NCBI GenBank assembly: GCA_002842695.1
Contig: PHDT01000017.1
Coordinates: forward strand, 1 to 59,136
Direction of reading: 5' to 3'
Length of the DNA stretch: 59,136 nucleotides
DNA from: Bacteroidetes bacterium HGW-Bacteroidetes-10
GTDB lineage: Bacteria; Bacteroidota; Bacteroidia; Bacteroidales; UBA932
This document shows, piece after piece, positions 18,953 to 55,373 of the stretch. The notes beneath the pieces were generated by a model that ran no database searches, was not told the origin of the DNA, and saw nothing but the letters and a program-made list of their open reading frames with translations. How positions within the stretch are numbered: the stretch's first letter is position 1; each line of letters opens with the position of its first letter. Position numbers and translations under genes: made by a program.

Positions 18953-19056
18953 CCTCAGAGGAAAAGTGTCAAATGTAATATTATTAACTAGTTAAGATAA
19001 ATTTCAATTTTGTATTAGTGTCTATTTATCTGCGATTTGACACTTTTCCTCTGAGG
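18953..19056. repeat. Family C inverted-repeat element, copy C1 (104 bp)
   Basis: Left arm 18953-18974 starts CCTCAGAGGAAAAGTGTCAA; right arm 19035-19056 ends TTGACACTTTTCCTCTGAGG; 22 of 22 positions pair. The 60-nt A/T-rich interior has CAATTTTGT near its middle, as in copies C2 and C3, which have the same total length. Confidence 0.92.
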
Positions 19057-19185
19057 CGCGATAAGGTGCCCGGCTCTGCCCGGCGGGAGTTAGCCTTCGG
19101 CAAAGGTTTTTCATGCTTTCACGCCGCATGTCGTTTTTCTTTGTTTGGTGGGGGTTTCAAGTATGTTTCACCAGGCAATTTTTAT

Positions 19186-19302
19186 CGACCCGCACGTCTG
19201 TAACTAATTGCATATCTGAAAGTAGCACTTTGTCCCCGCGGATGATCCGCGGGATTAAATTCCTAAGTATTGATTGTGTTAGAGTTACAGCCGTGCGGGT
19301 CG
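19186..19302. repeat. Family B concentric palindrome element, copy B1 (117 bp)
   Basis: Outer arms CGACCCGCACGTCTGTAACT (19186-19205) and AGTTACAGCCGTGCGGGTCG (19283-19302), 19 of 20 paired. The central palindrome CCCGCGGATGATCCGCGGG is centred on G19244, the exact midpoint of the element. The left half continues like B2 (CACTTTGTCCCCGCGG) but the right half has lost the matching complement, so the central stem is only 9 bp. Confidence 0.9.
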
Positions 19303-19469
19303 CTTACGAAATTTTCATGAAACCCGCCCTGTGTTTAGATTAGAAGGTGCCGGCCTAATGTCCGGCAAGTTTTGGCCATTCGGCAAAGGTTTTTCATGCT
19401 TGCACGCAGGCTGCGCAAGAGTCTTGTTGGGCTTTGGTTTCCCCGTGTTTTAGTTGACTATTTTTAGGG

Positions 19470-19586
19470 ATAACCGTACGGCTGTAATTGGCTGTCAATC
19501 AGAGAGAGCCACTTTGTCCCCGCGGATGATCCGCGGGGACAAAGTGGCTCTTGTTGGCTTACAGTGCGTTACAGCCGTACGGGTCG
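19470..19586. repeat. Family B concentric palindrome element, copy B2 (117 bp)
   Basis: Outer arms around ACCGTACGGCTGTAA (19473-19487) and TTACAGCCGTACGGGT (19569-19584). The central palindrome is a perfect 22-bp stem: 19506-19527 (GAGCCACTTTGTCCCC and on) with 19529-19550, around the single base 19528, the exact midpoint. Shares the 20-nt GGCAAAGGTTTTTCATGCTT 88 bp upstream with B1 (87 bp upstream there). Confidence 0.92.
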
Positions 19587-19668
19587 CGATGAAAATCTCC
19601 GGGAAGGCTTATCTGGACAATAAAAGCGCGCGCAGCGCTGCACCTTAGCCGGCTGCTAAGCAGACGGA

Positions 19669-19792
19669 CTGCGCCGCAATTTCTGTTAACTATTTGTCTA
19701 TAAACAAAATACAAAACACAAACTTTTAAAATGAAAAGTTTGTGTTTTGTAAATAGCTGTAAATATGTTGGTTAACAGAAATTGCGGCGCAG
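19669..19792. repeat. Family E double-hairpin element, copy E3 (124 bp)
   Basis: Outer arms 19669-19690 and 19771-19792 are perfect 22-nt reverse complements identical to those of E1. The inner stem AAAACACAAACTTTT (19713-19727) with AAAAGTTTGTGTTTT (19734-19748) is concentric with them (both centre at 19730.5). Lies before the 3' end of the flavoprotein gene and is a likely bidirectional terminator. Confidence 0.92.
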
Positions 19793-19800
19793 ACACGCCT

Positions 19801-19920
19801 GGTGGCTTGTGGCCTGGTGGCTTGTGGCCTGGTGGCTTGTGGCCCGGTGGCTTGTGGCCCGGTGGCTTGTGGCCTGGCGGCTTGTGGCCTGGTGGCCTGT
19901 GGCCCTTTGGCTTGTGGCCC
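19801..19920. repeat. 15-bp tandem repeat, eight units
   Basis: Eight units of GGTGGCTTGTGGCCY, phase starting at 19801, with point variants in units 6-8 and a degenerate ninth (GGCGGCAAAGCCGCC). The array is flanked by near-copies GCAGACACGCCTGG (about 19789) and GCAGACACGCCCGG (about 19959). Being a multiple of three it is open in several frames (PPGHK or GGLWP repeats), but no start, context or composition supports a protein. Confidence 0.92.
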
Positions 19921-19975
19921 GGCGGCAAAGCCGCCCGCCGGCCCTTGGCCTGGTGGGGCAGACACGCCCGGCGGC

Positions 19976-22900
19976 CTACTTGAATGCCTGCTCGCTAAGT
20001 CCTTTGCCTTTGAGCTTGAGTTCGTGGAAGTAGTCCGGAACCGGTTTGCCCTGCAGGTAGTCGACGTAGAGTTTGGCGATGTACTGAGAGAGCATGAAGC
20101 CGTGGCCGCGCATACCGGTGAAGAGTCCCAGTTCAGGGTCTACGATGTAGCGGGGCTCGATGTAGTATCCGCTCCATACAGCCTGGAAGCCTACGCCGGT
20201 GAGCTCAGGGATCCATCCGCCAAAGATTTCGGAAACGACCTCTATGAATTCACGGTTGTTTATTTTCAGGTTCTTGTCTGTCTCTTTAGCATCTATTGCA
20301 GGAGAGGCGCAGCCAATGATCTGACCGGTCTCTGCAAGCTGCTGTCCGTATACTGCCGAGAATCCGTTTTGTTTACGGCGGTCTATAAGCATGTCAAGAT
20401 TGGCTCCGTTCTTGCCTAGCATAGGGAGGCGCTTGGTTATAAAGGCCTGGTGCTTTACCGGGTAAAGTCCGGTCTCGATGCCAAGTTTGTTTGCAAACTT
20501 CTCTGCATCTGCACCAAGAGCATTGATAAAGATTTCAGTCTTATACTCTGTGTACCTTTTGTCTGATGTAAGAACAACTACACGGTAATCTTTGCCGTCA
20601 CGGGTTACATCTACAATCCGGTTATTTTCCAGAGTGACTCCTCCGTTTTCGCGTCCCAGAGCTCTGATTGTATCAAGGGTAAGACCCGGATTTGCCTGCC
20701 AGCAGTCATTTGTAATAAGTGCATGACTATACAGGTTAAGCGATGGATTGAAGTGTTCAGAGATCTCCTTGCGGAAATCCTTTTTGTCTACCATATATGC
20801 GTCTGACCAGCCTCTTGACATATCGAGTGCCTTGTAGGTATCTTCGTCATGGGCAAAACTTACATATCTTATAAGCTTGAAGTCAATAGGATGTTTTTCA
20901 TTGAGCTTTGCGAAGATTTCAAGGTTGTGCTTTGCAATGTCTGCAAGTGCAGGCAATGAGAATGCAGGACGACCTCCGGCAATGTTTCTCCATGAACTTC
21001 CAAGACCATCATTGATGAGGTAAGGTTTGTATCCTGCCTCAGCCATGTAACGGAACAACGATGAGCCGGCAATACCGCCACCTGCAATGATTGCGGGAAC
21101 CCTTACGGCCTCTTTGCTGCCGTTTGGAAGAATAATCTTCTGAACCTTTCCGTCCGGTGCCATGTCGCCCAGTGTAACCAGGTTGGACATAGGTCCGCGA
21201 GGTGTTGGTTCACCAATAACCTCAATTCCGTATGGTTTAAGAAGCATTCTTGCTCTTGGAACACACCGGTTACCGCGGCATGCTCCCATGCCAATTCTTG
21301 TGATATGTTTTAACTCATCAGAAGAGATAACCTTACGGTCTCCAATTGATGCTATCATCTTTTCGATGGTGATATCCTCGCAGTGGCAGATATATGTTTT
21401 GGAATCGTGCTTTTCATTCAGCGGCATCAGCTTTAACTTCTCAGGATACTTCTCCTTGATGATGAATCCGCGTACAGCCAGAAGCGCCTCTCCCTCGAGC
21501 CCTTTTGCCTTTACCCTTGCAACATTGGTCTTGTTCTCCTTTTTGAGGATCTTTTCAACCACTCCTTCGCCTACAATCTCACCGCTGTTGTTAACCAGGT
21601 ATACATCTGCCCCTTCGTCTGCCTTGTATTCGATAGGGAGGAAGAGCCAGTTTTTGTCAAACTGGTAACCGAAGATTGCGAGTCCGGGGCACTGATAAAC
21701 GCATCTCATACATCCAACGCACTTGTCAAAGTCAATTCTTGGAACAGAAGATGTCGATGATTTTGTGATTGCACCATATTTGCAGGCAAATGAACATGGG
21801 TTGCAGGCAAATCCGTACAGGCAGTCAATCTGAACAAATCCTGCAGCCTTCATTCTTTCGGGAGTGGGAAGAGATGGCTCTTCAATAACTCTTACGGGAT
21901 GCTGCTGGGAATCGATATACTCTTTTGAAACGGTAAGATAGTCGTTGTAATTGTACTTCATTCCCAGGTCCTGCATGATTTCGAATGCACACTGCTTGCC
22001 TCTCAGAACGGCAGAGGTACCTTCGCCAATTCTTACCGAGTCACCAACTCCGTGGCAGTTTCTTCCGTAAATCTCAACTCCTTTTCTGAAGAGCTGATTG
22101 TCAGGAATAAGTCCTGTGCAAATATTTATACAGTCAATGTCGTCAATGATTTTCTCTGTTCCCGGTATTGGCTTGAAGTTTTCGCACTCGGCAATAACTG
22201 CTCCAATAACTCCGGTTCTGTCTTCGTTTGGAATAGCCTCCAGGAGAATATGCGAAGTGAGAATTGGAATTCCCAGACGACGGACTCTGTTTGCCTGAAC
22301 AGGGAATCCGCCTTCGCGCGGCATTGCCTCAAGAATTGCCTTAACGGTTGCTCCCGCCTGCATTGCCTGATATGATGTAAGGTAGCCGATATTTCCGGCA
22401 CCCACTGTTAGTATCTTTCTTCCCAGAAGTGTAAGCTCCTGGTTCATCATTCTCTGAACTACCGCTGCTGTGTAAACACCTGGAAGGTCGTCATTCTTGA
22501 AGGCAGGCATGAAGGGAACCGCACCTGTTGCAATAACAAGATGTTCGGCATCTACATAGAAAATCTCCTGCTTTGCAATGTCTTTAATGACAAGTCTCTT
22601 TCCCTCGAGCACATCCCATACAACTGAGTCGAGGAGTATTCCGCTCAGGTCTTCACCTGCGAGGGTGTTTGCAATATCAAACCCGCGCATTCCGCCAAAC
22701 CTCTTCTCCTTCTCGAAGAAGAAAAACTGGTGTGTCTGCATCAGAAACTGACCGCCAATCTTGCTGTTGTTATCAATCACGAGGTTGTTCACTCCGGATT
22801 TGTTGAGCTCTTCACGGACTGCCAGACCTGCGGGGCCGGCGCCAATAATTGCTACCGTTGTCTTGAAGATTTTTGTTTCACGGCCGGCCCCCGCCTCAGC

Positions 22901-23209
22901 AACCTGCTCCGCCGGAAGGTACGACTCGTCAATCCTCTGTACACTTTTAACCTCGTCAACTTTGGTAATGCAGATACGCCTTACCTTTCCGTCTACAAGC
23001 ATTTCGCAGGCGCCGCATTTTCCAATGCCGCATTCCATAGTACGCTCCCTGTACTCGAGACTGTGTTTATGAACTACTCTCCCTGCCTGATGCAAAGCTG
23101 CTGCGATAGTGAAACCCCTCTGGCCAGCAACCTTTTCCCCCTCAAAAAGAAATTCTACTCTATCCTCCGCAGGGATGGGAAGGATAGGATGCTCGGTAAT
23201 TTTGTACAT
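19976..23209 (-). CDS. Fused HcnABC-like iron-sulfur flavoprotein dehydrogenase
   Basis: 1077 residues joining modules that are usually separate subunits. In order: [2Fe-2S] HcnA/Fer2-like domain (C60, C65, C68, C80); FAD/NAD(P) disulfide-reductase fold with IIGAGPAG near 121-128 and a second nucleotide motif VGAGNIG (269-275); two ferredoxin clusters (C463, C469, C472, C476; C497, C500, C503, C507); a BFD-like [2Fe-2S] domain (C608, C610, C644, C649); and a DAO-type FAD oxidase fold from about 704 (AGGGIAGSS). The order parallels HcnA-HcnB-HcnC and the hydroxyproline or opine dehydrogenase complexes, so an amino- or imino-acid dehydrogenase is inferred; the substrate cannot be read. No signal peptide: cytoplasmic or membrane-peripheral. 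Confidence 0.85.
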   Translation of the reverse strand: MYKITEHPILPIPAEDRVEFLFEGEKVAGQRGFTIAAALHQAGRVVHKHSLEYRERTMECGIGKCGACEMLVDGKVRRICITKVDEVKSVQRIDESYLPAEQVAEAGAGRETKIFKTTVAIIGAGPAGLAVREELNKSGVNNLVIDNNSKIGGQFLMQTHQFFFFEKEKRFGGMRGFDIANTLAGEDLSGILLDSVVWDVLEGKRLVIKDIAKQEIFYVDAEHLVIATGAVPFMPAFKNDDLPGVYTAAVVQRMMNQELTLLGRKILTVGAGNIGYLTSYQAMQAGATVKAILEAMPREGGFPVQANRVRRLGIPILTSHILLEAIPNEDRTGVIGAVIAECENFKPIPGTEKIIDDIDCINICTGLIPDNQLFRKGVEIYGRNCHGVGDSVRIGEGTSAVLRGKQCAFEIMQDLGMKYNYNDYLTVSKEYIDSQQHPVRVIEEPSLPTPERMKAAGFVQIDCLYGFACNPCSFACKYGAITKSSTSSVPRIDFDKCVGCMRCVYQCPGLAIFGYQFDKNWLFLPIEYKADEGADVYLVNNSGEIVGEGVVEKILKKENKTNVARVKAKGLEGEALLAVRGFIIKEKYPEKLKLMPLNEKHDSKTYICHCEDITIEKMIASIGDRKVISSDELKHITRIGMGACRGNRCVPRARMLLKPYGIEVIGEPTPRGPMSNLVTLGDMAPDGKVQKIILPNGSKEAVRVPAIIAGGGIAGSSLFRYMAEAGYKPYLINDGLGSSWRNIAGGRPAFSLPALADIAKHNLEIFAKLNEKHPIDFKLIRYVSFAHDEDTYKALDMSRGWSDAYMVDKKDFRKEISEHFNPSLNLYSHALITNDCWQANPGLTLDTIRALGRENGGVTLENNRIVDVTRDGKDYRVVVLTSDKRYTEYKTEIFINALGADAEKFANKLGIETGLYPVKHQAFITKRLPMLGKNGANLDMLIDRRKQNGFSAVYGQQLAETGQIIGCASPAIDAKETDKNLKINNREFIEVVSEIFGGWIPELTGVGFQAVWSGYYIEPRYIVDPELGLFTGMRGHGFMLSQYIAKLYVDYLQGKPVPDYFHELKLKGKGLSEQAFK

Positions 23210-23228
23210 AGTTAAGTTTAAATTTTAA

Positions 23229-23236
23229 CAAATTTA
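23229..23236 (-). promoter_or_regulatory. -7 box of the flavoprotein gene
   Basis: Minus-strand TAAATTTG, 19 nt before the ATG at 23209. No TTTG at the expected -33 distance, so this is a weak call. Confidence 0.4.
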
Positions 23237-23319
23237 TACAAAATTCTAAATCGTAATTTTAAAATTAGATATTTTTTGAAGATTATATCATTTGACCCTT
23301 TTTTGATAACAAAATGAAA

Positions 23320-23327
23320 TATATTTG
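23320..23327 (+). promoter_or_regulatory. -7 box of the DUF4493 lipoprotein gene
   Basis: TATATTTG, 32 nt before the ATG at 23360; two upstream TTTG sequences (23291, 23302) are 25 and 14 nt away, neither at the best distance. Confidence 0.45.
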
Positions 23328-23359
23328 AACTGTTTAAACCAATTAAAAAAGAGAAAGAT

Positions 23360-24412
23360 ATGAGGCGGATGATTTATTTGGTTGCCATCCTGGCGGCGGG
23401 CTGTCAGGGGCTGACTATCACAGGGGAGAGCACAGCAAGGCTGAGGCTCAGAATTGCGGGGGAGGATCCTCTGAGCAAGGGGGTTGTGAAGCCAATCCCG
23501 GACACAAACAAGATGTTTCTTTTTATAAAGGGTGAAGCCGGAGACACGGTTTACAACGGCCTTTACGGAGAGAGGCCTGCAGAATTAAAAGTTGAGGCGG
23601 GAAATTACACCGTGAACATCTATTCACATCTTCAAAACCTTCCAGAATTTGATGCACCATGCTGGTCAGATTCCAAAACCATTACCCTTGCGGCAGGCAG
23701 TGTCACCTCCCTTGCAATGGTGTGCCGCCAGTCAAACGGAGCGATGAGGCTCGGCTTCTCCCCCGAATTCAGGGCGAAATATTCTGCCTACACCCCGGAA
23801 ATTACCGACGCCCTTGGCACGGTTCAGTATCAGTTTTCCGAGGAGCGCTTCCTCTACCTTAAACCGGGAAATATTTATGTAAGGCTGACTCCTCTTGCCA
23901 CCGGTCAGCAGGTACCTCTTTTTTCCAAACTTCTTGCCGCTAAGGAGATGATTACCATTAACCTGAGACTGCTTCAGGGAGATTCAGCCTCATTTGGCGG
24001 CGGAATCCTGATTGACTCAACATCAAACTGGCAGACAGACTCTGTTTTCATTGGCGGAAATGACGGAAGCACAAAGGAGAAGGCGCTTACACTTGAAAGA
24101 ATCAGGGAGTATGTAGGGCTGAAGGTCTGGCTCACCGGGTACATAATTGGAGGCGATGTATCTGACGACACCCTCAGGTTTACTGCGCCTTTTACCAAAG
24201 AGACCTATCTCGCTGTTGCAGCAACATCCACCGAGAGGAGCCGTGATAAATGCTATGCAGTTAGTTTGCCGCTTGGTGCAATAAGGGATTCCTGTTCACT
24301 GGTAAGATTTCCTGCAAATATTGGCCGGAAAATATGGATAAAGGGTACAGTCAAGGAGTCCTACTATGGCTCGCCGGGAGTTGACCCGGTTACCGAAATA
24401 ATTATGGAATAG
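23360..24412 (+). CDS. DUF4493/DUF6359-type lipoprotein
   Basis: 350 residues, Bacteroidetes surface or periplasmic lipoprotein of unknown role. Signal peptide ends in the lipobox LAAGC (cysteine at residue 15). The first ~200 residues (LRLRIAGEDP, KVEAGNYTVNIYS) resemble DUF4493, a strand-rich domain of anchored envelope proteins; the C-terminal part (LKVWLTGYIIGGDV, GRKIWIKGTVKESYYGSPGV) matches the OB-fold-like DUF6359. Domain names are from pattern memory. Stands alone, with no fimbrial or SusCD partners nearby. Confidence 0.7.
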   Translation: MRRMIYLVAILAAGCQGLTITGESTARLRLRIAGEDPLSKGVVKPIPDTNKMFLFIKGEAGDTVYNGLYGERPAELKVEAGNYTVNIYSHLQNLPEFDAPCWSDSKTITLAAGSVTSLAMVCRQSNGAMRLGFSPEFRAKYSAYTPEITDALGTVQYQFSEERFLYLKPGNIYVRLTPLATGQQVPLFSKLLAAKEMITINLRLLQGDSASFGGGILIDSTSNWQTDSVFIGGNDGSTKEKALTLERIREYVGLKVWLTGYIIGGDVSDDTLRFTAPFTKETYLAVAATSTERSRDKCYAVSLPLGAIRDSCSLVRFPANIGRKIWIKGTVKESYYGSPGVDPVTEIIME

Positions 24413-24464
24413 AATCTTCATGCATTAATCTTTTATGACAGGGGTTTTTGTTTGCGAAAATGAT

Positions 24465-24472
24465 TATTTTTG
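24465..24472 (+). promoter_or_regulatory. -7 box directly before the acetyltransferase start
   Basis: TATTTTTG ends 5 nt before the ATG at 24478. If the box is used, transcription begins about at the start codon, giving a nearly leaderless message. No -33 at the best distance. Confidence 0.4.
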
Positions 24473-24477
24473 TCTGT

Positions 24478-25071
24478 ATGGAAACATCAGAAAAGAACTA
24501 TTTTGCTCACGAGACCTCTGTCATTGACGAAGGCTGCTCGATAGGGGCCGGAACAAAAATCTGGCACTTCTCTCATATTATGGAGGGGAGCTCTATTGGT
24601 GAGAGATGTAATATCGGACAGAACGTTGTTATCTCTCCGGGTGTTGAACTTGGAAACAATGTCAAGATTCAGAACAATGTTTCTGTCTATACAGGAGTTA
24701 CTTGCGGAGATGATGTTTTCCTTGGTCCGTCGTGCGTCTTCACCAACATTATTAATCCAAGAAGTGCTGTAAATAGACGGCACGATTATGCAAAAACACA
24801 TGTTGGAACAGGTGCGACCATAGGTGCAAATGCCACAGTTGTATGCGGACACAATATTGGCGAATATGCCTTTATTGGAGCTGGTGCGGTTATCACAAAG
24901 AGTGTCAAGCCCTATGCTCTCATAGTTGGAAATCCCGGAATTCAGATTGGCTGGATGAGCAGAATGGGACACAGGCTTCATTTTGACACCAAAGGATTTG
25001 CCAAATGCCCGGAGTCGGGTGATATTTATCAGCTTGACAACGGCACCGTAAAATTAAAAAGCAACCCATAG
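24478..25071 (+). CDS. WbpD/WlbB-type hexapeptide N-acetyltransferase
   Basis: Likely acetyl-CoA-dependent N-acetyltransferase for a UDP-amino sugar or sugar acid used in surface polysaccharide. About 197 residues from ATG 24478; codons at 24448 and 24460 are upstream in-frame starts but lie in or before the -7 box. Left-handed beta-helix repeats are clear (SIGAGTKIWHF, IGERCNIGQNVVISPGVELGNNVKIQNNV in pieces, IGANATVVCG, IGAGAVITKSV), with the usual IINPRSAVNR insertion and NPGIQIGWMSR C-terminus. No other polysaccharide genes are close. Confidence 0.85.
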   Translation: METSEKNYFAHETSVIDEGCSIGAGTKIWHFSHIMEGSSIGERCNIGQNVVISPGVELGNNVKIQNNVSVYTGVTCGDDVFLGPSCVFTNIINPRSAVNRRHDYAKTHVGTGATIGANATVVCGHNIGEYAFIGAGAVITKSVKPYALIVGNPGIQIGWMSRMGHRLHFDTKGFAKCPESGDIYQLDNGTVKLKSNP

Positions 25072-25081
25072 GGCTGCTTTT
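25057..25081. terminator. Terminator hairpin between acetyltransferase and thioredoxin genes
   Basis: AAAAGCAACCC (25057-25067) pairs with GGGCTGCTTTT (25071-25081) with one mismatch and a 3-nt loop, A-rich on one side and T-rich on the other, so it can work in both directions. It overlaps the stop codon of the plus-strand gene. Confidence 0.65.
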
Positions 25082-25115
25082 CAATCTTTTTAAAACCTTT
25101 AATTTGTCCTGCCGG

Positions 25116-25478
25116 TTACTTTCCCAGAAGCACCTTCTCAATTGCATCCTTAAATGATGCCTTTGGAAGTGCTCCCTGAGCCATTTGCGGAGTCTCGTTC
25201 ATTGGGCAGAAGAGAATGGTAGGGATGCTTCTGATGCCGAATGCACCTGCAAGTTCCTGCTCAGCCTCTGTATCCACTTTGTAAATGTAAATCTGCTCTG
25301 AATACTCCTTTGCAAGTTCGTCAAGGATTGGAGCAACCATTTTGCACGGTCCGCACCAGTCTGCGTAAAAGTCAATAATACAAGGCTTATCGCCCAGATA
25401 TTTCCACTCTGTGGGATTTGTTTCGTAGTTCGCAACTTTTGATAGGAACTCCTCTTTTGTTAGATGTATTGGTTTCAT
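25116..25478 (-). CDS. Thioredoxin
   Basis: 120 residues, a standard thioredoxin with active site WCGPCK (FYADWCGPCKMVAPILDEL) and the cis-proline region IRSIPTILF. Cytosolic disulfide reductant. A short N-terminal extension (MKPIHLTKEEFLSKVANYE) precedes the fold. Last gene of a minus-strand run with a methyltransferase, an HMA-like protein and a DUF6132 membrane protein, suggesting a redox or metal-linked role. Confidence 0.93.
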   Translation of the reverse strand: MKPIHLTKEEFLSKVANYETNPTEWKYLGDKPCIIDFYADWCGPCKMVAPILDELAKEYSEQIYIYKVDTEAEQELAGAFGIRSIPTILFCPMNETPQMAQGALPKASFKDAIEKVLLGK

Positions 25479-25519
25479 AATTTTATTCCTGTTTTAATTA
25501 TGTTGTTTATTATTAATTA

Positions 25520-26161: not shown

Positions 26162-26170
26162 TCTGTTTTT

Positions 26171-26437: not shown

Positions 26438-26456
26438 AATTCGTCTCTTTTCAGCC

Positions 26457-26684: not shown

Positions 26685-26764
26685 TTCTCGGTTAAATATT
26701 TATGCAAAGATAAATATATTTTCTAACAAAACAATTTTCCAATGGAAAATAAATTGGAAAAACT

Positions 26765-27820: not shown

Positions 27821-27852
27821 CGGGTTAACGAAACTTCAAATCTTGCATAGGG

Positions 27853-32174: not shown

Positions 32175-32291
32175 CGACCCGTACGGCTGTAACTAATTGA
32201 TTGATTGCACATAGCCCGTTAATCTGACATCTCAGATGTCAGATTAACGGGCTATGTGCTAATAATCTGCAACTTGCAGCCCTGCGGGTAG
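32175..32291. repeat. Family B concentric palindrome element, copy B3 (117 bp)
   Basis: Left arm CGACCCGTACGGCTGTAACT (32175-32194); the right arm (to 32291) is degenerate. The central palindrome is a perfect 26-bp stem: 32207-32232 (GCACATAGCCCGTTAATCTG and on) with 32234-32259, around the single base 32233, the exact midpoint. Its sequence is unrelated to the central stem of B2. Confidence 0.9.
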
Positions 32292-32313: not shown

Positions 32314-32417
32314 CCCCTGGGGAAAAGTGTCAAACATCACATATTCAATTAGTTGTGAAATATTTCGTTTTTGTATAAAAAGCTGTTTATCAACGATCTG
32401 ACACTTTTCCCCAGGGG
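32314..32417. repeat. Family C inverted-repeat element, copy C2 (104 bp)
   Basis: Arms 32314-32335 (CCCCTGGGGAAAAGTGTCAA plus AC) and 32396-32417 (ending CTGACACTTTTCCCCAGGGG). Relative to C1 the arm tips changed from CCTCAGAGG to CCCCTGGGG on both sides, so pairing is kept. The interior has CGTTTTTGT at the place of CAATTTTGT. Confidence 0.9.
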
Positions 32418-32442: not shown

Positions 32443-32490
32443 TGAAGTGACCCCCAAAAGTTAGACAAAAACTTTTTTGGGGTCACTTCT
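32443..32490. repeat. IS3-family-end-like hairpin remnant
   Basis: AAGTGACCCC (32445-32454) pairs with GGGGTCACTT (32479-32488); inside are AAAAGTTAGACA and AACTTTTTT. TGAAGTGACCCCCAAAAGTT resembles the terminal repeat of IS3/IS150-group insertion sequences, so this may be two abutting IS ends left after internal deletion. No transposase is present. Confidence 0.45.
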
Positions 32491-32511: not shown

Positions 32512-32636
32512 ACATGTCAGCCTAATTTACAATTATCAGTAATTCAGATTGTTAAATGAATGGAGATTTCAAAAAATCTAGATTTAGAAAACGTAATACG
32601 CAGATATTCAGTGATGTGTAAATTAGGCTGACATGT
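32512..32636. repeat. Family A inverted-repeat element, copy A3 (125 bp)
   Basis: Arms ACATGTCAGCCTAATTTACA (32512-32531) and TGTAAATTAGGCTGACATGT (32617-32636), a perfect 20-bp match. Exactly as long as A1 and A2, 28 kb away. Confidence 0.92.
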
Positions 32637-47893: not shown

Positions 47894-47916
47894 AACACAT
47901 ATATACCAATTTTGTA

Positions 47917-48249
47917 ATGAAAGTTAAAGATGTTGCTGAAAAGCTCGGACTTAAGGTTTTTTCTGCTCCTCAGGGGCTCGAAAGAGAGGTTTCAGGCGGA
48001 TACACCTCAGATTTACTCTCTGATGTAATGGGTCACTCTCAGGAGGGGCAAATCTGGATTACACTTCAGACGCACAAGAATATTATGGCTGTTGCTTCTC
48101 TGAGGGATCTTGCTGCAATTATTCTTGTAAAGGGATTTGAACCTGATGCAGATACAATGGAGCTCTCAGAGCAGGAGGGGATTCCTGTACTGGGTACCAG
48201 AATGCAGGCATTCGAACTCTCCGGTAGTCTTTACGAAATCCTTAAATGA
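47917..48249 (+). CDS. DRTGG-domain protein 2
   Basis: 110 residues. One DRTGG domain (GGYTSDLLSDVMGHSQEGQIWIT; IILVKGFEPDADTMELSEQEGIPVLGT), distantly like the first one at 45802 and probably a paralogue. Overlaps the PHP gene by 4 nt. Confidence 0.83.
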   Translation: MKVKDVAEKLGLKVFSAPQGLEREVSGGYTSDLLSDVMGHSQEGQIWITLQTHKNIMAVASLRDLAAIILVKGFEPDADTMELSEQEGIPVLGTRMQAFELSGSLYEILK

Positions 48250-48971: not shown

Positions 48972-48976
48972 TTTTT

Positions 48977-49522
48977 ATGAATGACCTTTCTCTGCACATC
49001 ATTGATATAATCCAGAACTCGCTTAGCGCAGGAGCGAAGAGAATCGGCCTTGCTGTAAAAGAGGATGTTCATGCCGATAAACTGACAATCACAATTGAAG
49101 ATGACGGAAAGGGGATGTCTCCTGAAATAGTGGCAAGGCTGGAAGATCCGTTTTATACAACAAGAACAACCAGAAAGGTGGGGATGGGAATTCCCCTCTA
49201 TAAACACTCTGCAATGCAGAGTGGGGGCGATGTGCGCATTGAGTCTGAACTGGGAAAGGGAACTAAGGTTATTGCGTGGTTTCAGTTGAACAATATTGAC
49301 CGCCCGCCGCTGGGTGATGTGGCAAATTCTTTTGTGCTGATGGTCTCTGCAAATCCGCATATCCATTTTACACTTTGCTATTCTGTAAACGAAAATGAGT
49401 ACACTTTCGACAGCATGGAAGTTGCCGGCGTTCTGGGTGATATAGAGCTGAGTGATGTGCGTGTAATCAGGTTGCTGGAGGAGATGATCAGGGAGAATAT
49501 TAACGAGTTAAAAATGATGTAA
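48977..49522 (+). CDS. HATPase (GHKL) ATP-binding protein 2
   Basis: 181 residues. Histidine-kinase-type ATPase domain alone: N-box SLHIIDIIQNSLSAGAKRIG, G1 EDDGKGM, F-box/G2 FYTTRTTRKVGMGIPLYKHSA, SELGKGTKVIA. The last ~65 residues form a small extra domain. A partner-switch kinase or histidine kinase remnant. Last of the five signalling genes before hydABC. Confidence 0.84.
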   Translation: MNDLSLHIIDIIQNSLSAGAKRIGLAVKEDVHADKLTITIEDDGKGMSPEIVARLEDPFYTTRTTRKVGMGIPLYKHSAMQSGGDVRIESELGKGTKVIAWFQLNNIDRPPLGDVANSFVLMVSANPHIHFTLCYSVNENEYTFDSMEVAGVLGDIELSDVRVIRLLEEMIRENINELKMM

Positions 49523-49716
49523 AACCCTCATACAGAATGTTTGATCATATTAGAAAAGGGGCATCTGAAGGGGTGCCGGAGTTATGCTCTCTTCTGATTT
49601 CAAACATTTAGCTTATAATTTTACACAATATCGATATTTATATTTTGGGATTGTTAGGAAAATGCCTATTTTTATCCCATAATTTCATACAGGGAATTTC
49701 AATAACATCATAAATT
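49523..49716 (+). promoter_or_regulatory. Structured leader before the hydrogenase structural genes
   Basis: 194 bp. The inverted repeat AATGTTTGA (49536-49544) and TCAAACATT (49600-49608) encloses a smaller hairpin GGCATC/GGTGCC-like (about 49559-49576). No T-run follows, so this is not a standard terminator. No TAnnTTTG box was found; TATATTTTGG near 49640 is one base too long. Candidate regulatory site or RNA structure. Confidence 0.45.
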
Positions 49717-50118
49717 ATGAACAAAATCAAGTCCCTAGAAGATTTGCGCAAGATGAAGCAAAGTCTCGAACACGGAATGAACATCCGTGAGAAGAGCAAT
49801 GAGCCGGATTCTCTTGTTCAGATACGGGTGGCAATGGCAACATGCGGTATCGCATCCGGAGCCAGAACCGTAATGAACGCACTTGTGGAAAAGATCGAGC
49901 AGGAGAAGATTCCGGCTGTGGTTACACAAGGAGGATGCATGGGCTACTGCTATGCAGAACCAACAATTGAGGTAAAGGTACCCGGCAAAGATCCGGTTGT
50001 CTTTGGCAATGTGGATGCTGTAAGAGCAATTGAAATTATTGAGAAGTACATCGTAAACGGAGAACTTCTTGATGGTATCATTCCAACCAATTATCAATCT
50101 ATTAACGAAAAACAATAG
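49717..50118 (+). CDS. Small [2Fe-2S] thioredoxin-like ferredoxin of the hydrogenase operon
   Basis: 133 residues, NuoE-C-terminal-like. Cysteines C43 (MATCGIASGAR), C74 and C78 (QGGCMGYCYAEP); the usual second cysteine of the first pair is absent, a trait of this subfamily in clostridial and Bacteroidetes hydrogenase operons. Likely electron-transfer partner or assembly factor of HydABC. Six nt before hydB. Confidence 0.85.
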   Translation: MNKIKSLEDLRKMKQSLEHGMNIREKSNEPDSLVQIRVAMATCGIASGARTVMNALVEKIEQEKIPAVVTQGGCMGYCYAEPTIEVKVPGKDPVVFGNVDAVRAIEIIEKYIVNGELLDGIIPTNYQSINEKQ

Positions 50119-50124
50119 GGAGAT

Positions 50125-51918
50125 ATGGCACAGTACAAAATGCACCTTTTAGTATGTGGCGGAACAGGCTGCAGAGCTTCGCAAAGCGAACAGATCGTTG
50201 AGAACCTTAAATCAGAAATCAAAAACCTTGGGCTGGAAAATGATGCACAGGTAGTAACCACCGGTTGCTTTGGATTCTGTGAAAAGGGTCCTATTGTTAA
50301 GATTATACCTGATAACACTTTCTACACTCAGGTTAAACCGGAGGATTGTGCGGAGATTGTTACCGAGCACGTACTCAAAGGAAGAAAAGTAAACAGACTT
50401 CTTTATGAAGATCCTGAAACTTTAAAACACATCGAGGATTCGAAGCATATGGGTTTCTACCAGAAACAGCTTCGTATTGCCTTGAGAAACTGCGGATTCA
50501 TTGATCCGGAAAATATTGACGAGTACATCGCACGTGATGGCTATGCCGCTATTGGCAAGATTATCACAGAGATGACTCCGGAAGCGGCGATTGACATCAT
50601 GAAAAAGTCAGGTCTTCGCGGCAGGGGCGGCGGAGGATTTCCTACCGGCCTTAAGTGGGAGATTGCTTCAAAGAACAAGGCAGACCAGAAATATGTTGTT
50701 TGTAATGCAGACGAGGGAGACCCGGGAGCATTCATGGACCGCTCAATTCTTGAGGGAGACCCGCACTCGGTAATTGAGGCAATGGCTATATGCGGATACT
50801 GTATTGGTGCAACCAAAGGTATCGTTTATATCCGCGCTGAATATCCGCTTGCAATTAAAAGACTTAAAGTTGCTGCAAGACAGGCCAGAGCATACGGCCT
50901 TCTTGGAGAGAAGATACTGGGAACTGATTTCGACTTCGATATCGAATTGAGATATGGTGCCGGTGCATTTGTATGCGGAGAGGAGACTGCGCTCATCCAC
51001 TCTATGGAGGGACACCGCGGAGAACCTACTGTTAAACCACCATTTCCTGCAGAGAAGGGTTACCTTGGCAAGCCAACCAACGTTAACAACGTTGAGACCT
51101 TTGCAAACGTACCTGCAATTTTCCTTAAGGGAGCCGAGTGGTTTGCAAGCATTGGAACAGAGAAATCTAAGGGAACAAAGGTGTTCGCACTGGCTGGAAA
51201 GATTAATAACGTTGGTCTGATTGAGGTTCCTATGGGAATTACTCTCAGAGAGGTTATTTTTGAAATTGGCGGTGGAATCAAGGATGGTAAAAAATTCAAG
51301 GCTGTTCAGACCGGAGGTCCGTCAGGCGGATGTCTCACAGAGAAGCACCTTGATACTCCTATTGACTTTGACAACCTCATTGCTGCAGGCTCTATGATGG
51401 GCTCAGGCGGTATGATTGTTATGGACGAAGATGACTGTATGGTTTCTGTAGCGAAATTCTACCTGGAGTTTACAGTTGAAGAGTCTTGCGGAAAATGTGC
51501 ACCATGCCGTATCGGTAACAAGAGACTTCATGAGATTCTTGAGAAGATTTGCGGAGGAAAAGGTGTTGAAGAGGACATTGAGTACCTGAAGAACCTGAGC
51601 AGGGTTATTAAGGATACTTCTCTCTGCGGACTCGGCCAGACATCTCCTAACCCTGTACTCTCTACTATCGAGCACTTCTACGATGAGTATCTTGCTCACG
51701 TAAAAGAGAGAATATGTCCTGCCGGAAGTTGCAAGGCCCTCAAGCTCTATACTATCATCTCAGATAAGTGTACAGGTTGTACAGCCTGCGTTCGCGCATG
51801 TCCTGTAGATGCCATTACAGGTGAAAAACGCCAGCCGCATGTCATTGATGCCGATAAGTGTATCCGCTGTGGTGCATGTTATGACAAGTGTAAGTTTACA
51901 GCTATTCACGTTCAATAA
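50125..51918 (+). CDS. hydB: NAD-linked [FeFe] hydrogenase, subunit beta (NuoF-like)
   Basis: 597 residues. N-terminal [2Fe-2S] thioredoxin-like domain (CGGTGCRAS; CFGFCEKGP), NuoF core with FMN/NADH loop GLRGRGGGGFPTGLKWE and GAFVCGEETALIHSMEG, an iron-sulfur site SCGKCAPCRIGNKRL, and a C-terminal two-cluster ferredoxin (CTGCTACVRACP; CIRCGACYDKCK). Site of NAD(H) chemistry and, in characterised HydABC complexes, of flavin-based electron bifurcation between NADH and ferredoxin. Confidence 0.95.
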   Translation: MAQYKMHLLVCGGTGCRASQSEQIVENLKSEIKNLGLENDAQVVTTGCFGFCEKGPIVKIIPDNTFYTQVKPEDCAEIVTEHVLKGRKVNRLLYEDPETLKHIEDSKHMGFYQKQLRIALRNCGFIDPENIDEYIARDGYAAIGKIITEMTPEAAIDIMKKSGLRGRGGGGFPTGLKWEIASKNKADQKYVVCNADEGDPGAFMDRSILEGDPHSVIEAMAICGYCIGATKGIVYIRAEYPLAIKRLKVAARQARAYGLLGEKILGTDFDFDIELRYGAGAFVCGEETALIHSMEGHRGEPTVKPPFPAEKGYLGKPTNVNNVETFANVPAIFLKGAEWFASIGTEKSKGTKVFALAGKINNVGLIEVPMGITLREVIFEIGGGIKDGKKFKAVQTGGPSGGCLTEKHLDTPIDFDNLIAAGSMMGSGGMIVMDEDDCMVSVAKFYLEFTVEESCGKCAPCRIGNKRLHEILEKICGGKGVEEDIEYLKNLSRVIKDTSLCGLGQTSPNPVLSTIEHFYDEYLAHVKERICPAGSCKALKLYTIISDKCTGCTACVRACPVDAITGEKRQPHVIDADKCIRCGACYDKCKFTAIHVQ

Positions 51919-51930
51919 TCTCCGCTCTCA

Positions 51931-53694
51931 ATGGAAAAATTTACAATAAAAATTGATAATACCGAGGTAGAGGTTAGTAAAGGTACCACCATCTACCAGG
52001 CAGCAAAGCAAATTGGAATTGACATTCCTGTGCTTTGCTATTTGAACCTCGAGCACCTCAACATAGAAAGCCGTCCGGGTGGATGCCGTATTTGTGTTGT
52101 GGAGGTTGAGGGAAGAAGAAACCTAGCTCCCTCTTGTTCTACAGAATGTACTCCGGGAATGGTAGTAAACACTCACAATATGAGGGTTATGAATGCCAGG
52201 AAGACAGTTCTAGAACTTATTCTGTCTGACCACCCTAAAGAGTGTCTTACATGTTCATCATCAGGCCAGTGTGATCTCCAGCACCTCTCTCAGGTAATGG
52301 GAATCAGAGAGATTCACGCTGTTGAGAACGCAGAGATGTCTACTTACAGAAAAGACGTCTCCCCTGCACTTAAAAGGGATATGGATAAATGTATCATGTG
52401 CCGCCGCTGCGAGACCATCTGTAACGATGTTCAGACAGTAGGTGCACTCAGCGCAGTAAACAGAGGATTTATGTCAGTTGTTGCACCGGCTTTTGAGCAG
52501 GACCTCATTGACTCTCCTTGTACTTTCTGCGGACAGTGTGTGGCAGTTTGTCCTACAGGAGCTCTTACTCCTTATGACGACACCGCCAAAGTGCTTCGTG
52601 CCCTTGCAGACCCTTCAAAAACAGTTATTGTACAGACAGCTCCAGCTGTTCGTGCTGCACTGGGTGAAGAGTTCGGACTTGAGCCGGGAACACTTGTAAC
52701 CGGAAAAATGGTTGCGGCTCTTCGTTCACTTGGATTTGACAAGATTTTTGACACAGACTTTGCAGCTGACCTTACCATTATGGAAGAGGGAGCTGAACTT
52801 CTGGGCAGAATCTCAAAATTCCTTGCAGGAGACAAAGATGTTAAACTTCCAATTCTTACATCATGCTGCCCTGCATGGGTTAACTTCTTTGAGGAGTACT
52901 ATCCTTGCATGCTTGACATTCCGTCAACAGCTCGTTCACCTCAGCAGATGTTCGGATCAATTGCCAAGAACTACTATGCAGAGTTAATGGGTGTTAAAAG
53001 AGAAGACCTGGTTGTTGTCTCAGTAATGCCTTGCCTTGCAAAGAAATATGAATGTGCACGTGAAGAGTTCTCAACAAACGGTAATCCGGATGTAGACTTC
53101 TCTATTTCAACTCGTGAACTTGCTTCGCTTATCAAGAGCTGCAATATCAACTTCGATCTTCTTCCTGATGAAGATTTTGACAACCCGCTTGGTGAGTCAA
53201 CAGGTGCCGGTGTTATCTTCGGAGTAACCGGTGGTGTGATTGAGGCTGCTGTTCGTACTGCTTACGAGCTGTTCACAGGCAAAAAACTTGACAAGATTGA
53301 CTTTAAAGAGCTGCGCGGTCTCGAAGGAATCCGCATGGCTTCTATAGATTTCAACGGTACTATGATTCACATTGGTATTGCTCACCAGCTTGGCAACGCC
53401 CGTAAACTCCTTGATGGAATTCGTTCAGGAATGTACAACTTCCACGCAATCGAGATTATGGCATGTCCGGGTGGTTGCATTGGCGGAGCAGGTCAGCCTC
53501 TTCACCATGGCAATTCAAAGGTTATCAAGGCCCGCTCAGAGGCTATTTACAGGGAAGATTCACAGAAGACAATCCGTAAATCGCATGAAAACCCATACAT
53601 CGTAAAACTTTACGAAGAGTACCTGGGACATCCGATGAGCGAAAAGGCTCACCATCTTCTCCACACACACTACTTTGAAAAAAATAAAAAATAG
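51931..53694 (+). CDS. hydA: [FeFe] hydrogenase catalytic subunit (group A)
   Basis: 587 residues. NuoG-like N-terminus: [2Fe-2S] ligands around C36, C52, C55, C69; His/Cys cluster in SDHPKECLTCSSSGQC; two [4Fe-4S] clusters (C154, C157, C160, C164; C197, C200, C203, C207). H-cluster motifs are complete: TSCCPAW (C312 proton relay, C313 ligand), MPCLAKKYE (C368) and MACPGGCIGG. C-terminal small-subunit-like tail. Together with HydB and HydC it forms the soluble H2-evolving trimer. Confidence 0.96.
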   Translation: MEKFTIKIDNTEVEVSKGTTIYQAAKQIGIDIPVLCYLNLEHLNIESRPGGCRICVVEVEGRRNLAPSCSTECTPGMVVNTHNMRVMNARKTVLELILSDHPKECLTCSSSGQCDLQHLSQVMGIREIHAVENAEMSTYRKDVSPALKRDMDKCIMCRRCETICNDVQTVGALSAVNRGFMSVVAPAFEQDLIDSPCTFCGQCVAVCPTGALTPYDDTAKVLRALADPSKTVIVQTAPAVRAALGEEFGLEPGTLVTGKMVAALRSLGFDKIFDTDFAADLTIMEEGAELLGRISKFLAGDKDVKLPILTSCCPAWVNFFEEYYPCMLDIPSTARSPQQMFGSIAKNYYAELMGVKREDLVVVSVMPCLAKKYECAREEFSTNGNPDVDFSISTRELASLIKSCNINFDLLPDEDFDNPLGESTGAGVIFGVTGGVIEAAVRTAYELFTGKKLDKIDFKELRGLEGIRMASIDFNGTMIHIGIAHQLGNARKLLDGIRSGMYNFHAIEIMACPGGCIGGAGQPLHHGNSKVIKARSEAIYREDSQKTIRKSHENPYIVKLYEEYLGHPMSEKAHHLLHTHYFEKNKK

Positions 53695-53700
53695 ACTGTC

Positions 53701-54180
53701 ATGAGCAATTTGAAACTACAGGAATGCCACTTAAAGACAATTGACGAGGTATGTGACTCGTACAAAAACGACCCGGGCGATCTGATCAAGATTTTGCACA
53801 AAGCACAGACTGCCTTCGGATACCTTCCGGAGAGTGTTCAGCGCGAAATTGCAAAAAGGCTCAAAATATCAGTCGCTAAAGTATACGGTGTTGTTACTTT
53901 CTACTCTTTCTTTACAATGACTCCAAAGGGCAAGCATGCCATCTCAGTTTGTATGGGAACTGCATGCTATGTAAGGGGCGCTGAGAAAGTGGTGGATGAA
54001 TTCAAAGAACATCTTAAGATAAAGGTTGGCGGAGTTACCGAGGACGGAAAGTTCTCACTTGACTGCCTTCGCTGTGTAGGTGCCTGCGGACTTGCTCCGG
54101 TTGTGCTTATTGGCGAAAAAGTATACGGCCGTGTTGAGCCTTCACAGGTGAAGGAGATCCTCGACAGCTATACTGACTAA
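53701..54180 (+). CDS. hydC: NAD-linked [FeFe] hydrogenase, subunit gamma (NuoE-like)
   Basis: 159 residues. Thioredoxin-like [2Fe-2S] protein with the full four-cysteine set: VCMGTACYVRGAEKV and CLRCVGACGLAP. N-terminal helical bundle ALQTAFGYLP-like (HKAQTAFGYLPESVQREIAKRL in parts). Last gene of the operon, 6 nt after hydA, followed by a terminator. Confidence 0.95.
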   Translation: MSNLKLQECHLKTIDEVCDSYKNDPGDLIKILHKAQTAFGYLPESVQREIAKRLKISVAKVYGVVTFYSFFTMTPKGKHAISVCMGTACYVRGAEKVVDEFKEHLKIKVGGVTEDGKFSLDCLRCVGACGLAPVVLIGEKVYGRVEPSQVKEILDSYTD

Positions 54181-54199
54181 TCTTTAAGCTCTTATATTG

Positions 54200-54236
54200 A
54201 AAGAGGGTGCCCTTTTGGACACCCTCTTTTTTTGTG
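54200..54236 (+). terminator. Terminator of the hydrogenase operon
   Basis: AAAGAGGGTG (54200-54209) pairs with CACCCTCTTT (54220-54229), followed by a T run, 20 nt after the hydC stop. Confidence 0.92.
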
Positions 54237-54272
54237 AATCTGGTATTCTAAATGCTAAAGTTTCTCATTTGT

Positions 54273-54406
54273 AAAACTCTGGCAGAGTTTTTAGCAAGTT
54301 CTTGATTATTAGGTTAGAACAATATTTTAAGAAGGTGATTTTTCGGAATTGCAAAGTTGCTATATCTTGATATTCTGCAAGTTCGTAAAAACTCTGCCAG
54401 AGTTTC
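54273..54406. repeat. Family D inverted-repeat element, copy D2 (134 bp)
   Basis: Ends AAAACTCTGGCAGAGTTTT (54273-54291) and AAAACTCTGCCAGAGTTTC (54388-54406). As in D1, TAGCAAGTTCTTGA follows the left end, CAAGTTCGTA precedes the right end, and GATTTTTCG sits mid-element; other interior bases differ. Lies between convergent hydC and the peroxiredoxin gene. Confidence 0.9.
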
Positions 54407-54415
54407 TGGTTCAGA

Positions 54416-55120
54416 TTATTTGCCCAGGGCAGAAAGTACTTTGTCCTTGTCAAGTTTCTTTGTGCAGAAGAACCAGTCGTGGCAGGTAACTCCCTCTTCC
54501 TTGCCATCCATTCTCTCTTTGGCAACACCGCATGAGCCGGCAGTTGGGACAATCACATCATCACCAGGGCGCCAGTCGGCTGGCATTGCTACTTTAAAGT
54601 TATCTGCAGTCTGGAGTGCGATGATTACTCTCTTGATCTCATCGAAGTTTCTTCCGAGTGCAAGAGGGTAGTAGATAATTGCTCTGATAACGCTTTGCGG
54701 GTCAATGAAAAATACGGCGCGCACAGCTTTTGTGCTGCTTTCACCTGGCTGAAGCATTCCGTATTTTTTTGCTACCTCCATGGTTATGTCCTCAATGAGT
54801 GGGAACTTAACCTCAATATCTTTCATCCCTTTGTATTCGATTTTCTCTTTAATGGTACGCAGCCATGCAATGTGGCTGTAGAGTCCATCCACAGAGAGTC
54901 CGACGAGCTGAGTATTCAGCTTCTCAAACTCATCCTGCATTGATGCAAATGTCATGAATTCAGATGTACATACAGGAGTGAAGTCTGCAGGGTGGCTGAA
55001 GAGAATTGTCCATTTTCCCTTGTAATCAGACGGGAAATTAATATCACCCTGAGTTGTTACTGCTTTAAATTCCGGAGCGATATCACCTATTCTGGGCATC
55101 GCATAAACTTGATTTTCCAT
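54416..55120 (-). CDS. 1-Cys peroxiredoxin (Prx6/AhpC family)
   Basis: 234 residues from ATG 55120 (MENQVYAMPRIGD); a longer in-frame form starts upstream of the -7 box. Peroxidatic cysteine C51 in HPADFTPVCTSEF, plus the C-terminal extension ADWRPGDDVIVP typical of Prx6. A further cysteine-containing tail (GSCGVAKE, VTCHDWFFC) suggests a resolving residue is possible. Reduces H2O2 and organic peroxides in the cytosol. TATTTTTG on the minus strand at 55161-55154 is a candidate -7 box. Confidence 0.93.
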   Translation of the reverse strand: MENQVYAMPRIGDIAPEFKAVTTQGDINFPSDYKGKWTILFSHPADFTPVCTSEFMTFASMQDEFEKLNTQLVGLSVDGLYSHIAWLRTIKEKIEYKGMKDIEVKFPLIEDITMEVAKKYGMLQPGESSTKAVRAVFFIDPQSVIRAIIYYPLALGRNFDEIKRVIIALQTADNFKVAMPADWRPGDDVIVPTAGSCGVAKERMDGKEEGVTCHDWFFCTKKLDKDKVLSALGK

Positions 55121-55269
55121 ATTGATTTTTGTTTTTATTTGTTTTTGATGGTACAAAAATAGTGATACCAATATGATAAATCAAATAGATTAAAAACAAC
55201 AGAGCATAGAAAATATCTATATGTAGTCGTCGGAGTTTGTCTGACGTCTGTCTCCGGGGGCTGTTTTCG

Positions 55270-55373
55270 CCTCAGAGGTAAAGTGTCAAATCATTGAATA
55301 TAAGTGTATTAAGCAATACATCAATTTTGTCTAATTCGTTGATATATTGATATTTGACACTTTACCTCTGAGG
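55270..55373. repeat. Family C inverted-repeat element, copy C3 (104 bp)
   Basis: Arms 55270-55291 (CCTCAGAGGTAAAGTGTCAA plus AT) and 55352-55373 pair perfectly; relative to C1 one A-T pair in the arm changed to T-A on both sides. CAATTTTGT is kept in the interior. Lies between two minus-strand genes. Confidence 0.92.

Follow-up and report, generated by a model that had tools for sequence, protein, structure and literature searches.

The presence, in a single stretch of Bacteroidales DNA, of several kinds of short inverted-repeat elements that each keep to one length has led us to wonder how these families relate to one another, what holds their length and which enzyme might spread them. The stretch, hereafter the window, comprises 59,136 nucleotides of Bacteroidetes bacterium HGW-Bacteroidetes-10 (contig PHDT01000017.1). 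A sequence-only reading had counted fourteen elements in five families; all 14 were located here, and the start of 18953 given by that reading omits the copies at 3636-10077, which its own text must count. Its family B (117 bp) is our E (115 bp, measured from the conserved arm) and its E (about 125 bp) is our B (125 or 124 bp), the letters A, C and D being unchanged.

Elements of the window and their lengths

None of the elements is assigned a strand, and the coordinates in brackets are those of the approximate box halves discussed below. Family A is represented by three copies of 125 bp, at 3636-3760 (3661-3684 and 3712-3735), at 3874-3998 (3899-3922 and 3950-3973), where the tip is a variant, ACCTGCCAG, and at 32512-32636 (32537-32560 and 32588-32611); the first two also measure 125 bp at their sites in the related genome G020. 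Family B has a 125-bp copy at 4702-4826 (4727-4750 and 4778-4801), a 124-bp copy at 19669-19792 (19694-19717 and 19744-19767) that is retained in G020, and a truncated copy at 9991-10077 consisting of one arm and the central hairpin. The 104-bp C1 elements lie at 18953-19056 (18977-19000 and 19009-19032) and 55270-55373 (55294-55317 and 55326-55349), and the C2 element, also of 104 bp and with tips CCCCTGGGG, at 32314-32417 (32338-32361 and 32370-32393). The two D elements, of 134 bp, occupy 9854-9987 (9883-9906 and 9935-9958), a site at which G020 carries an F-type element, and 54273-54406 (54302-54325 and 54354-54377). Family E, of 115 bp, is found at 19187-19301 (19208-19231 and 19257-19280), at 19471-19585 with a long central hairpin (19492-19515 and 19541-19564) and at 32176-32290, a copy that the pairing script missed because one of its arms has diverged. 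Going by an open-reading-frame list read by eye, the elements sit in convergent or tandem gaps as had been proposed, save that the A copy at 3874-3998 possibly reaches into the beginning of the gene that follows.

The claim that each family has a fixed length is borne out by 112 paired copies, whose length is constant per family within 1 bp; the census covers 237.5 kb of loci fetched around genome-wide arm matches and is therefore not one of the whole genome. At these loci A measures 125 bp in 25/25 copies, E 115 bp in 16/16 and an additional family, F, 123 bp in 3/3, while B measures 125 bp in 17 of 20 copies and 124 bp in 3, C1 104 bp in 12 of 13 and 105 bp in one, C2 104 bp in 11 of 12 and 103 bp in one, and D 134 bp in 19 of 23 and 133 bp in 4. 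A search with the C1 pattern, permitting 90-120 bp, returned 37 copies in five genomes, all of 104 bp. Neither copies of variable length nor a predominance of single arms was found in this genome, the 74 unpaired arm matches being mostly either low-threshold matches to F or the D tip as it reads on the opposite strand, in a list judged by eye. The interiors have indeed diverged, with a median identity of just 0.50-0.62 in five of seven families, so that conserved inverted ends enclose a less conserved interior of set length, as in REPINs. Element lengths span 104-144 bp in this genome and reach 176 bp in relatives. An Rfam search returned a tRNA alone.

A common inverted box

The families had been described as unrelated in sequence, a view that fails because they have an internal box in common. 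All six families tested carry it, inverted, as a half of about 24 nt at a fixed offset in 193 of 198 halves under leave-one-family-out testing; both the logos and this test drew on 99 of 109 copies, those of modal length whose flanks were complete, with F excluded. Family G has the box in one half only. Sites scoring at least 8 bits are not element-specific, 40 of the 71 in the window lying outside elements, and the box fails in one or both halves of 32 of the 93 inverted pairs, chance pairs included, from loci around RAYT genes and in relatives. It is tempting to think of IHF as the protein that may bind the box, the genome encoding two PF00216 proteins, and yet this is only a suggestion, because the strict IHF consensus, WATCAANNNNTTR, has 5 matches in the 99 elements and the relaxed consensus 20 in total; these are sparse, share a single offset within each of A, B, C1 and C2, are scattered in D and are absent in E.

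The distance from box to box is 75 bp in A, B and F, 56 in C1 and C2, 76 in D and 73 in E. Among 62 further elements, 4 of them from this genome, the distances cluster at 55-57, 65, 74-77, 85-86, 94-96 and 114-116, those outside the clusters being 39, 71 and 72. Distance classes predicted beforehand were put to the test, first in 20 stretches of 20 kb at even spacing, from which no element was accepted, and next in another 20 chosen close to RAYTs or to elements already known. The 40 together supplied 19 new elements, most of them repeats of known families, and the distance matched a predicted class in 16, the misses being 51, 51 and 73. A spacing of the boxes by helical turns is suggestive only, since the periodicity by family (30 hand-entered values, 73-77 left out) is not significant, the observed value being reached in 2946 of 20000 null runs, and the binomial of 0.0175 refers to a chosen window.

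RAYT genes and their repeats

A search for a RAYT or other Y1 enzyme, which the sequence-only reading had advised, revealed five RAYT genes in the genome, each with a different family on both of its flanks. Four matched PF01797 and have elements of A, B, C1 and D, respectively, on each side; the fifth, which that search missed, was detected by profile only and has family G on both flanks. No RAYT was found for C2, E or F in the assembly, which is 93.5% complete, and the RAYT of family D is split over two frames. PF01797 scored above its cut-off in all four RAYTs scanned, the fifth lying outside the scan. The NHxH motif and the catalytic tyrosine are invariant, the latter in the motif YI[LIFV]xNP, and the spacing from HuH to Y is 57 in 31 of 32 aligned RAYTs, the remaining one having no recognised Y motif. 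The predicted fold (pLDDT 89.4) has the RAYT-REP complex 4ER8 as its top Foldseek match, followed by the TnpA proteins of IS608 and ISDra2, so that HUH motif, tyrosine and Y1_Tnp fold are all in place; a sequence search of solved structures gave nothing useful, and the NCBIfam RAYT model scored 36-48 bits, under its cut-off of 80. In the model, residues 203-264 form C-terminal helices, and no Pfam HTH domain was matched in the RAYTs scanned.

The relationship among arms follows that among RAYTs. With hand-trimmed arms, the Mantel correlation is 0.72 for 23 RAYTs and 0.47 for the 16 that are less than 60% identical, neither value being reached in 5000 permutations. The 23 are those with an assignable arm among 32 aligned RAYTs, hand-picked from 53 distinct ORFs (5 of this genome and 48 of relatives, the split D gene excluded from the alignment). 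Among 24 genus relatives, 21 have 1-5 RAYT matches, some of which are two pieces of one gene. An inverted-repeat element was found at most 700 bp from the RAYT in 31 of the 53 ORFs and a box-bearing one in 25, the same arm standing on both flanks in 19; of the 22 without an element by the strict test, 9 have a repeat common to both flanks by BLAST. Flanks were fetched for part of the RAYTs, with duplicate proteins removed, and on this basis C1 elements occur in 4/4 genomes in which a C-type RAYT with C1 arms was seen and in 1 of 21 others. In 400 kb of evenly spaced sequence from relatives we found three inverted pairs, none with the box, and at 54 homologue loci whose labels name neither Bacteroidales nor Bacteroidetes (600 bp of flank, slightly stricter arm score) flanking pairs were limited to two Stenotrophomonas loci. 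A third match among these loci is a run of N.

How the elements may be kept and spread

Mobilisation in trans by a RAYT-type Y1 enzyme, one of two explanations offered earlier, is now the best reading, because the five RAYTs are flanked by their own families and because the relationships of arms and RAYTs agree. Judging from these comparisons, the elements are very probably REPIN-like, non-autonomous repeats of Bacteroidales that are kept and spread by dedicated RAYTs, that is, HUH/Y1 single-strand nucleases. The partnership of repeat and enzyme is of a known sort; its form here is unusually elaborate. At both ends of an element stands, in inverted orientation, an arm of about 20 nt that is specific to the family and would be the address for its own RAYT; inward of it follow the AT-rich common box and a core of largely free sequence and set length. 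The RAYT would cut and rejoin elements during replication, and copying would require both ends at the correct distance, which would explain the fixed length. The box may bind a common protein, either a bending protein of the HU/IHF type or the helix-turn-helix-like C-terminal domain common to these RAYTs.

Selection on a folded structure had also been proposed, and the elements might then be structural RNAs or terminators selected for a long hairpin, with RAYT genes nearby by chance. Whole elements do fold far better than shuffled sequences (z -6.2 to -13.0, 6/6), they lie in convergent and tandem gaps according to the list read by eye, and A keeps its length at orthologous sites where the length of the flanks has changed. 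Against this, no covariation was found in the interiors of six families, whose halves pair no better within elements than between them (6/6), and covariation of the whole hairpin is rejected accordingly; selection on structure is thus unsupported. The matched changes once noted in both arms hold for A (5/2000 permutations) and C1 (21/2000) and not for B, C2, D, E or F, concordance in just 2 of 7 families, and the same family on both flanks of a cognate RAYT also counts against this explanation, which we consider improbable. We consider it highly improbable that the elements are ordinary MITEs, with terminal inverted repeats mobilised by the DDE transposase of a full-length IS. Not one of 110 copies with full flanks has a target-site duplication of at least 4 bp at its ends, on which ground a DDE-type MITE is rejected, and the genes beside which A, B, C1, D and G stand are those of Y1 enzymes. 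The inverted termini, the constant size, the number of families and the intergenic sites would suit a MITE, as would a remnant at 32444-32489 that we take to be the end of an IS3-like element. Among the same 110 copies two flanking bases are identical in 16 (8.0 expected); with the ends shifted outward by 3 bases, three are identical in 6 (1.6 expected), and with shifts of 4-6 bases at most 2 share 4-6 bases.

A further possibility, which we hold to be rather doubtful, is domestication: the elements were formerly mobile by RAYTs, most copies are now inherited vertically and a host role, in the nucleoid or at transcription ends, keeps them and hence their length. G020 does have two copies of A and one of B at the same sites, with substitutions and no change of length, the A copies between flanks of altered length, and the 21 relatives noted above have RAYT matches. 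Two compared sites have nevertheless turned over, with an F-type element in place of D and with C1-E-E missing in a deletion-like manner, and a check for empty sites in G020 gave no clean ones; moreover, domestication is compatible with transposition and overlaps the reading of RAYT-spread repeats.

Within the latter reading, we tentatively propose, as a possibility rather than an expectation, that these RAYTs ignore the small REP hairpin and act on a two-ended nucleoprotein complex, in which the arm would be the address, the box the site of a common factor and the core a ruler. The factor would bind double strands and be one for all families, HU/IHF or the RAYT C-terminal domain, and the ruler might count helical turns so as to place both boxes on the same side. 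As regards the hairpin of a single arm, it is clear in D (-5.2 kcal/mol) and weak in the five other arms of six folded (-0.1 to -1.9); the hairpins predicted for A and E differ from the tip palindrome. GT[AG]G or its complement, sought in each arm and 6 nt outside, occurs in 17 of 224 arms (B 6/40, A 6/50, E 2/32, C2 1/24, D 1/46, F 1/6, C1 0/26), so that a canonical GTAG foot is not seen. If such a complex exists, one genome holds five or more separate address codes for single-strand nucleases on one chassis. The matter bears on the choice of a repeat by its RAYT and on the constancy of REPIN length: one family-level lineage offers about twenty natural RAYT-arm pairs (23) with a common box and largely free cores, and address, box and ruler can therefore be separated in binding and cutting assays. 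Seemingly unrelated repeat families of one genome can thus be a single design with exchangeable ends.

In E. coli BIME-1/RIB elements an IHF site lies between two REPs; the present elements likewise enclose an IHF-like motif between their ends and differ from that single site in having two inverted boxes, which are putative binding sites. The REPIN/RAYT system as described for Pseudomonas fluorescens SBW25 (Bertels and Rainey 2011, PMC3116915) resembles ours in its inverted conserved ends, its less conserved spacer of fixed length and its intergenic location, and also in that a genome holds several families, each next to a RAYT of its own. The SBW25 REPINs have 71 bp between 16-mers of GI in that account, shorter than the elements here, which differ further in the inverted box common to the families, the missing GTAG-type foot, the C-terminal extension of the RAYT clade and the Bacteroidales host. 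Subclass 2.6, as characterised by Quentin (2018, PMC6006769), shares the phylum, being found mostly in Bacteroidetes, as well as the "atypical secondary structures" in the flanks and further genomic copies. Its median HuH-Y spacing of 82, with a 21-residue insertion, compares with 57 here, and an assignment to it is rejected on the strength of that description. Also comparable are TIRtrons/TIRYTs (Di Nocera 2013, PMC3733652) and subclass 2.1 (PMC6006769), which are described with longer Y1 proteins bearing an HTH-type C-terminal extension and with long TIRs, some self-complementary and some forming repeat families. The GGGGWSAS motif reported for the majority of TIRs is found in 0/224 arms of this genome and in 0/186 arms of the inverted pairs searched around RAYT genes and in relatives, and subclass 2.1, compared by description, is said to have no REP-like sequences nearby, unlike the flanks here. 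The Y motif of both groups, Y[IV]ELNP or YIHLNP (PMC3733652, PMC6006769), stands beside the YI[LIFV]xNP of the RAYTs described here.

Element copies and their transposase genes

All 14 elements of the window were recovered by repeat searches and by direct inspection of the sequence, and searching the organism's own assembly (G000; 2.41 Mb in 42 contigs, 93.5% complete) with one member from each of five families returned many additional copies. After 237.5 kb of fetched loci had been merged by coordinate and the arms paired, we obtained 112 complete elements (A 25, B 20, C1 13, C2 12, D 23, E 16 and F 3), and the fixed length per family put forward in the sequence-only reading held throughout, with variation of at most 1 bp. 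The median pairwise identity of the interiors, calculated without gaps on copies of modal length and in the better of two orientations, was 0.50-0.62 for A, B, C1, D and F, 0.71 for C2 and 0.86 for E; length is therefore conserved where sequence varies.

That reading had also proposed looking for a RAYT (REP-associated tyrosine transposase), an IS200/605-type Y1 enzyme or another orphan transposase, and a Y1_Tnp search of G000 identified four genes, flanked on both sides by A, B, C1 and D respectively, one family per gene. A profile built from these four genes revealed a fifth on contig C1, with family G (ACCTTGCCTTACTTTTTCGCAA, 138-144 bp) on either side. The first four proteins all exceed the Pfam Y1_Tnp cut-off and match the NCBIfam RAYT model, but under its cut-off. 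For the A-family RAYT, the predicted structure (pLDDT 89.4) has as its closest fold 4ER8, the structure of a RAYT in complex with a REP hairpin, followed by IS608 and ISDra2 TnpA; the model includes an additional helical C-terminal part whose helix pattern we read as a putative helix-turn-helix. The C1 RAYT gene (L126) runs 66 bp into the element downstream of it, and the B RAYT ORF (L125) shares 22-24 bp with each of its two elements, so that terminal residues are encoded by the elements. The D-family RAYT (L127, G000:C29:9484-10238) is split between two reading frames and may have decayed, even though only one family has more paired copies than D.

Element ends and a box shared between families

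The families had been described as sequence-unrelated, and this does not stand. Folding every element in half and comparing families uncovered a motif common to them, roughly YWRWWWWWCWRnnAnWTAnnAAWW, which occurs at both ends in opposite orientation. When each family is scored with a matrix derived from the remaining ones, 193 of 198 halves carry this box at the single offset of their family; the observed score was reached by none of 200 column permutations in each of six families. It starts 25 nt from the element end in A and B, 24 in C1 and C2, 29 in D and 21 in E; in family G just one of the two halves carries it. Part of the box aligns loosely with the IHF consensus. The box alone is not specific, since many window sites lie outside elements: with a matrix trained on the same families whose elements it scores, 31 of 71 sites of at least 8 bits and 23 of 34 of at least 10 bits fall inside elements, which occupy 1636 of the 59136 bp.

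Selection on folded structure, also suggested earlier, finds no support, as interiors pair no better within elements than between elements; whole elements fold strongly, as would any inverted repeat, and single-arm hairpins are mostly weak. The arms are conserved as sequence, and matched arm changes show up in A and C1 only. GTAG feet are absent, and none of 110 copies shows a target-site duplication of at least 4 bp at its ends; two-base flank identity exceeds expectation (16 of 110 against 8.0). The box-to-box distance tends to steps near 10 bp between families, which is no more than suggestive of a spacing that follows helical turns, and we keep this only as a bold reading: tested by family, the periodicity does not reach significance (2946 of 20000 null runs attain it), and distances of 39, 51, 71, 72 and 73 lie off the steps.

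RAYT loci of relatives and placement among known systems

The RAYT profile matched in 36 of 60 genomes and in 22 of 25 within the genus, G000 counted. An inverted-repeat element lies at most 700 bp from 31 of 53 distinct RAYT ORFs (5 own); an element with the box is near 25 of the 53, and the same arm occurs on both sides in 19. Among the 108 halves of 54 inverted pairs, taken from relatives' RAYT loci and from the family-G locus of G000, 55 score above the 99% point of the random null, and in a wider set, chance pairs included, both halves reach 4 bits in 61 of 93 pairs. Around one RAYT of the relative G009 (L239, L334), most copies of a GTGGCACTGATTTTTC-arm family are without the box; copy length varies there, unlike in the other families. 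At 54 homologue loci whose labels name neither Bacteroidales nor Bacteroidetes (for one of them the label is simply 'bacterium'), searched over 600 bp with a slightly different arm score, no flanking inverted pairs were found except at two Stenotrophomonas loci, which carry a GGGGTCAG-type repeat; a third match was a run of N. In three Stenotrophomonas pairs the box score is not above the 99% point of the random null.

Arm distance tracks RAYT distance across relatives. Tips of the CC[CT]CAG[AG]GG type occur with all five RAYTs carrying the motif NHWH and with two more (L143 and L144, with NHIH and NHVH). Exact paired C1 elements are present in 5 of 25 genus genomes, in 37 copies that are all 104 bp long (90-120 bp permitted) and not independent, since G010 and G024 include some near-identical copies; a control with the pattern reversed found nothing in the 25 genomes. 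A C-type RAYT with matching arms was seen in four of these five genomes, and the fifth, the close relative G020 (82% complete), gave no RAYT match. A second family, with CCTTGCCACAG... arms, is represented in three genomes by 9 copies, each 135-136 bp long (112-142 bp permitted). Two CCTTGCCACAG-type elements, L326:3832-3936 and L328:18869-18979, have a box distance of 51, not 85-86, and form a second, shorter length class.

We conclude that the elements work like REPINs, the inverted REP doublets moved by RAYTs, while strict REP membership fails for want of the GTAG foot. Placement was compared against passages of PMC6006769, PMC3733652, PMC3116915 and PMC8266576. Judged by HuH-to-Y spacing, the RAYTs are not subclass 2.6 as portrayed in PMC6006769; their length and extended C-terminus are reminiscent of subclass 2.1/TIRYT, a candidate placement (PMC6006769 and PMC3733652). 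Our limited search, outside supplementary tables and most subscription literature, found no published description of such elements in Bacteroidales save the 'atypical structures' of PMC6006769.

Blocks, orthologous sites and turnover

Elements of different families adjoin one another, and a block of E and A with an 81-bp gap recurs at four places, which argues that some copying involves larger blocks. Larger recurring E blocks (G000:C17:59060-59760, C8:576-1114 and C29:47796-48240) carry GC-rich hairpins (GGTGCCGGGC...CCCGGCGGG) and a GCACGTGGGAAACTTT border. At orthologous sites in G020, the D site of the window is occupied by an F-type element and C1-E-E is missing while B is retained; element sites thus turn over. 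Both A copies at 3.6-4.0 kb are kept in G020, where they also measure 125 bp, the first with 80% identity over 126 bp, while the stretches next to them differ in length: from the end of the upstream gene's match to the first A there are 72 bases in the window against 14 in G020, and between the two copies 113 against 53. Within window 3874-4030, the second A element has an in-frame ATG in its right half, which may, judging from the sequence, give the next protein, presumably LolA-like, a signal-peptide-like start, the element then supplying the N-terminus. By eye, a similar ATG is present at the G020 counterpart.

Immediately after a B element, a tandem array with a 15-bp unit (GCCTGGTGGCTTGTG) spans window positions 19797-19931, where G020 has diverged sequence. 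At 32444-32489, two ends face each other (GAAGTGACCCCCAAAAGTTAGAC...GGGGTCACTTC), presumably IS3-like, and form an apparent IS remnant. A perfect 23-bp inverted repeat with a 2-nt loop lies at 1901-1948, within ORF 1081-3561, which we take to be FtsK-like.
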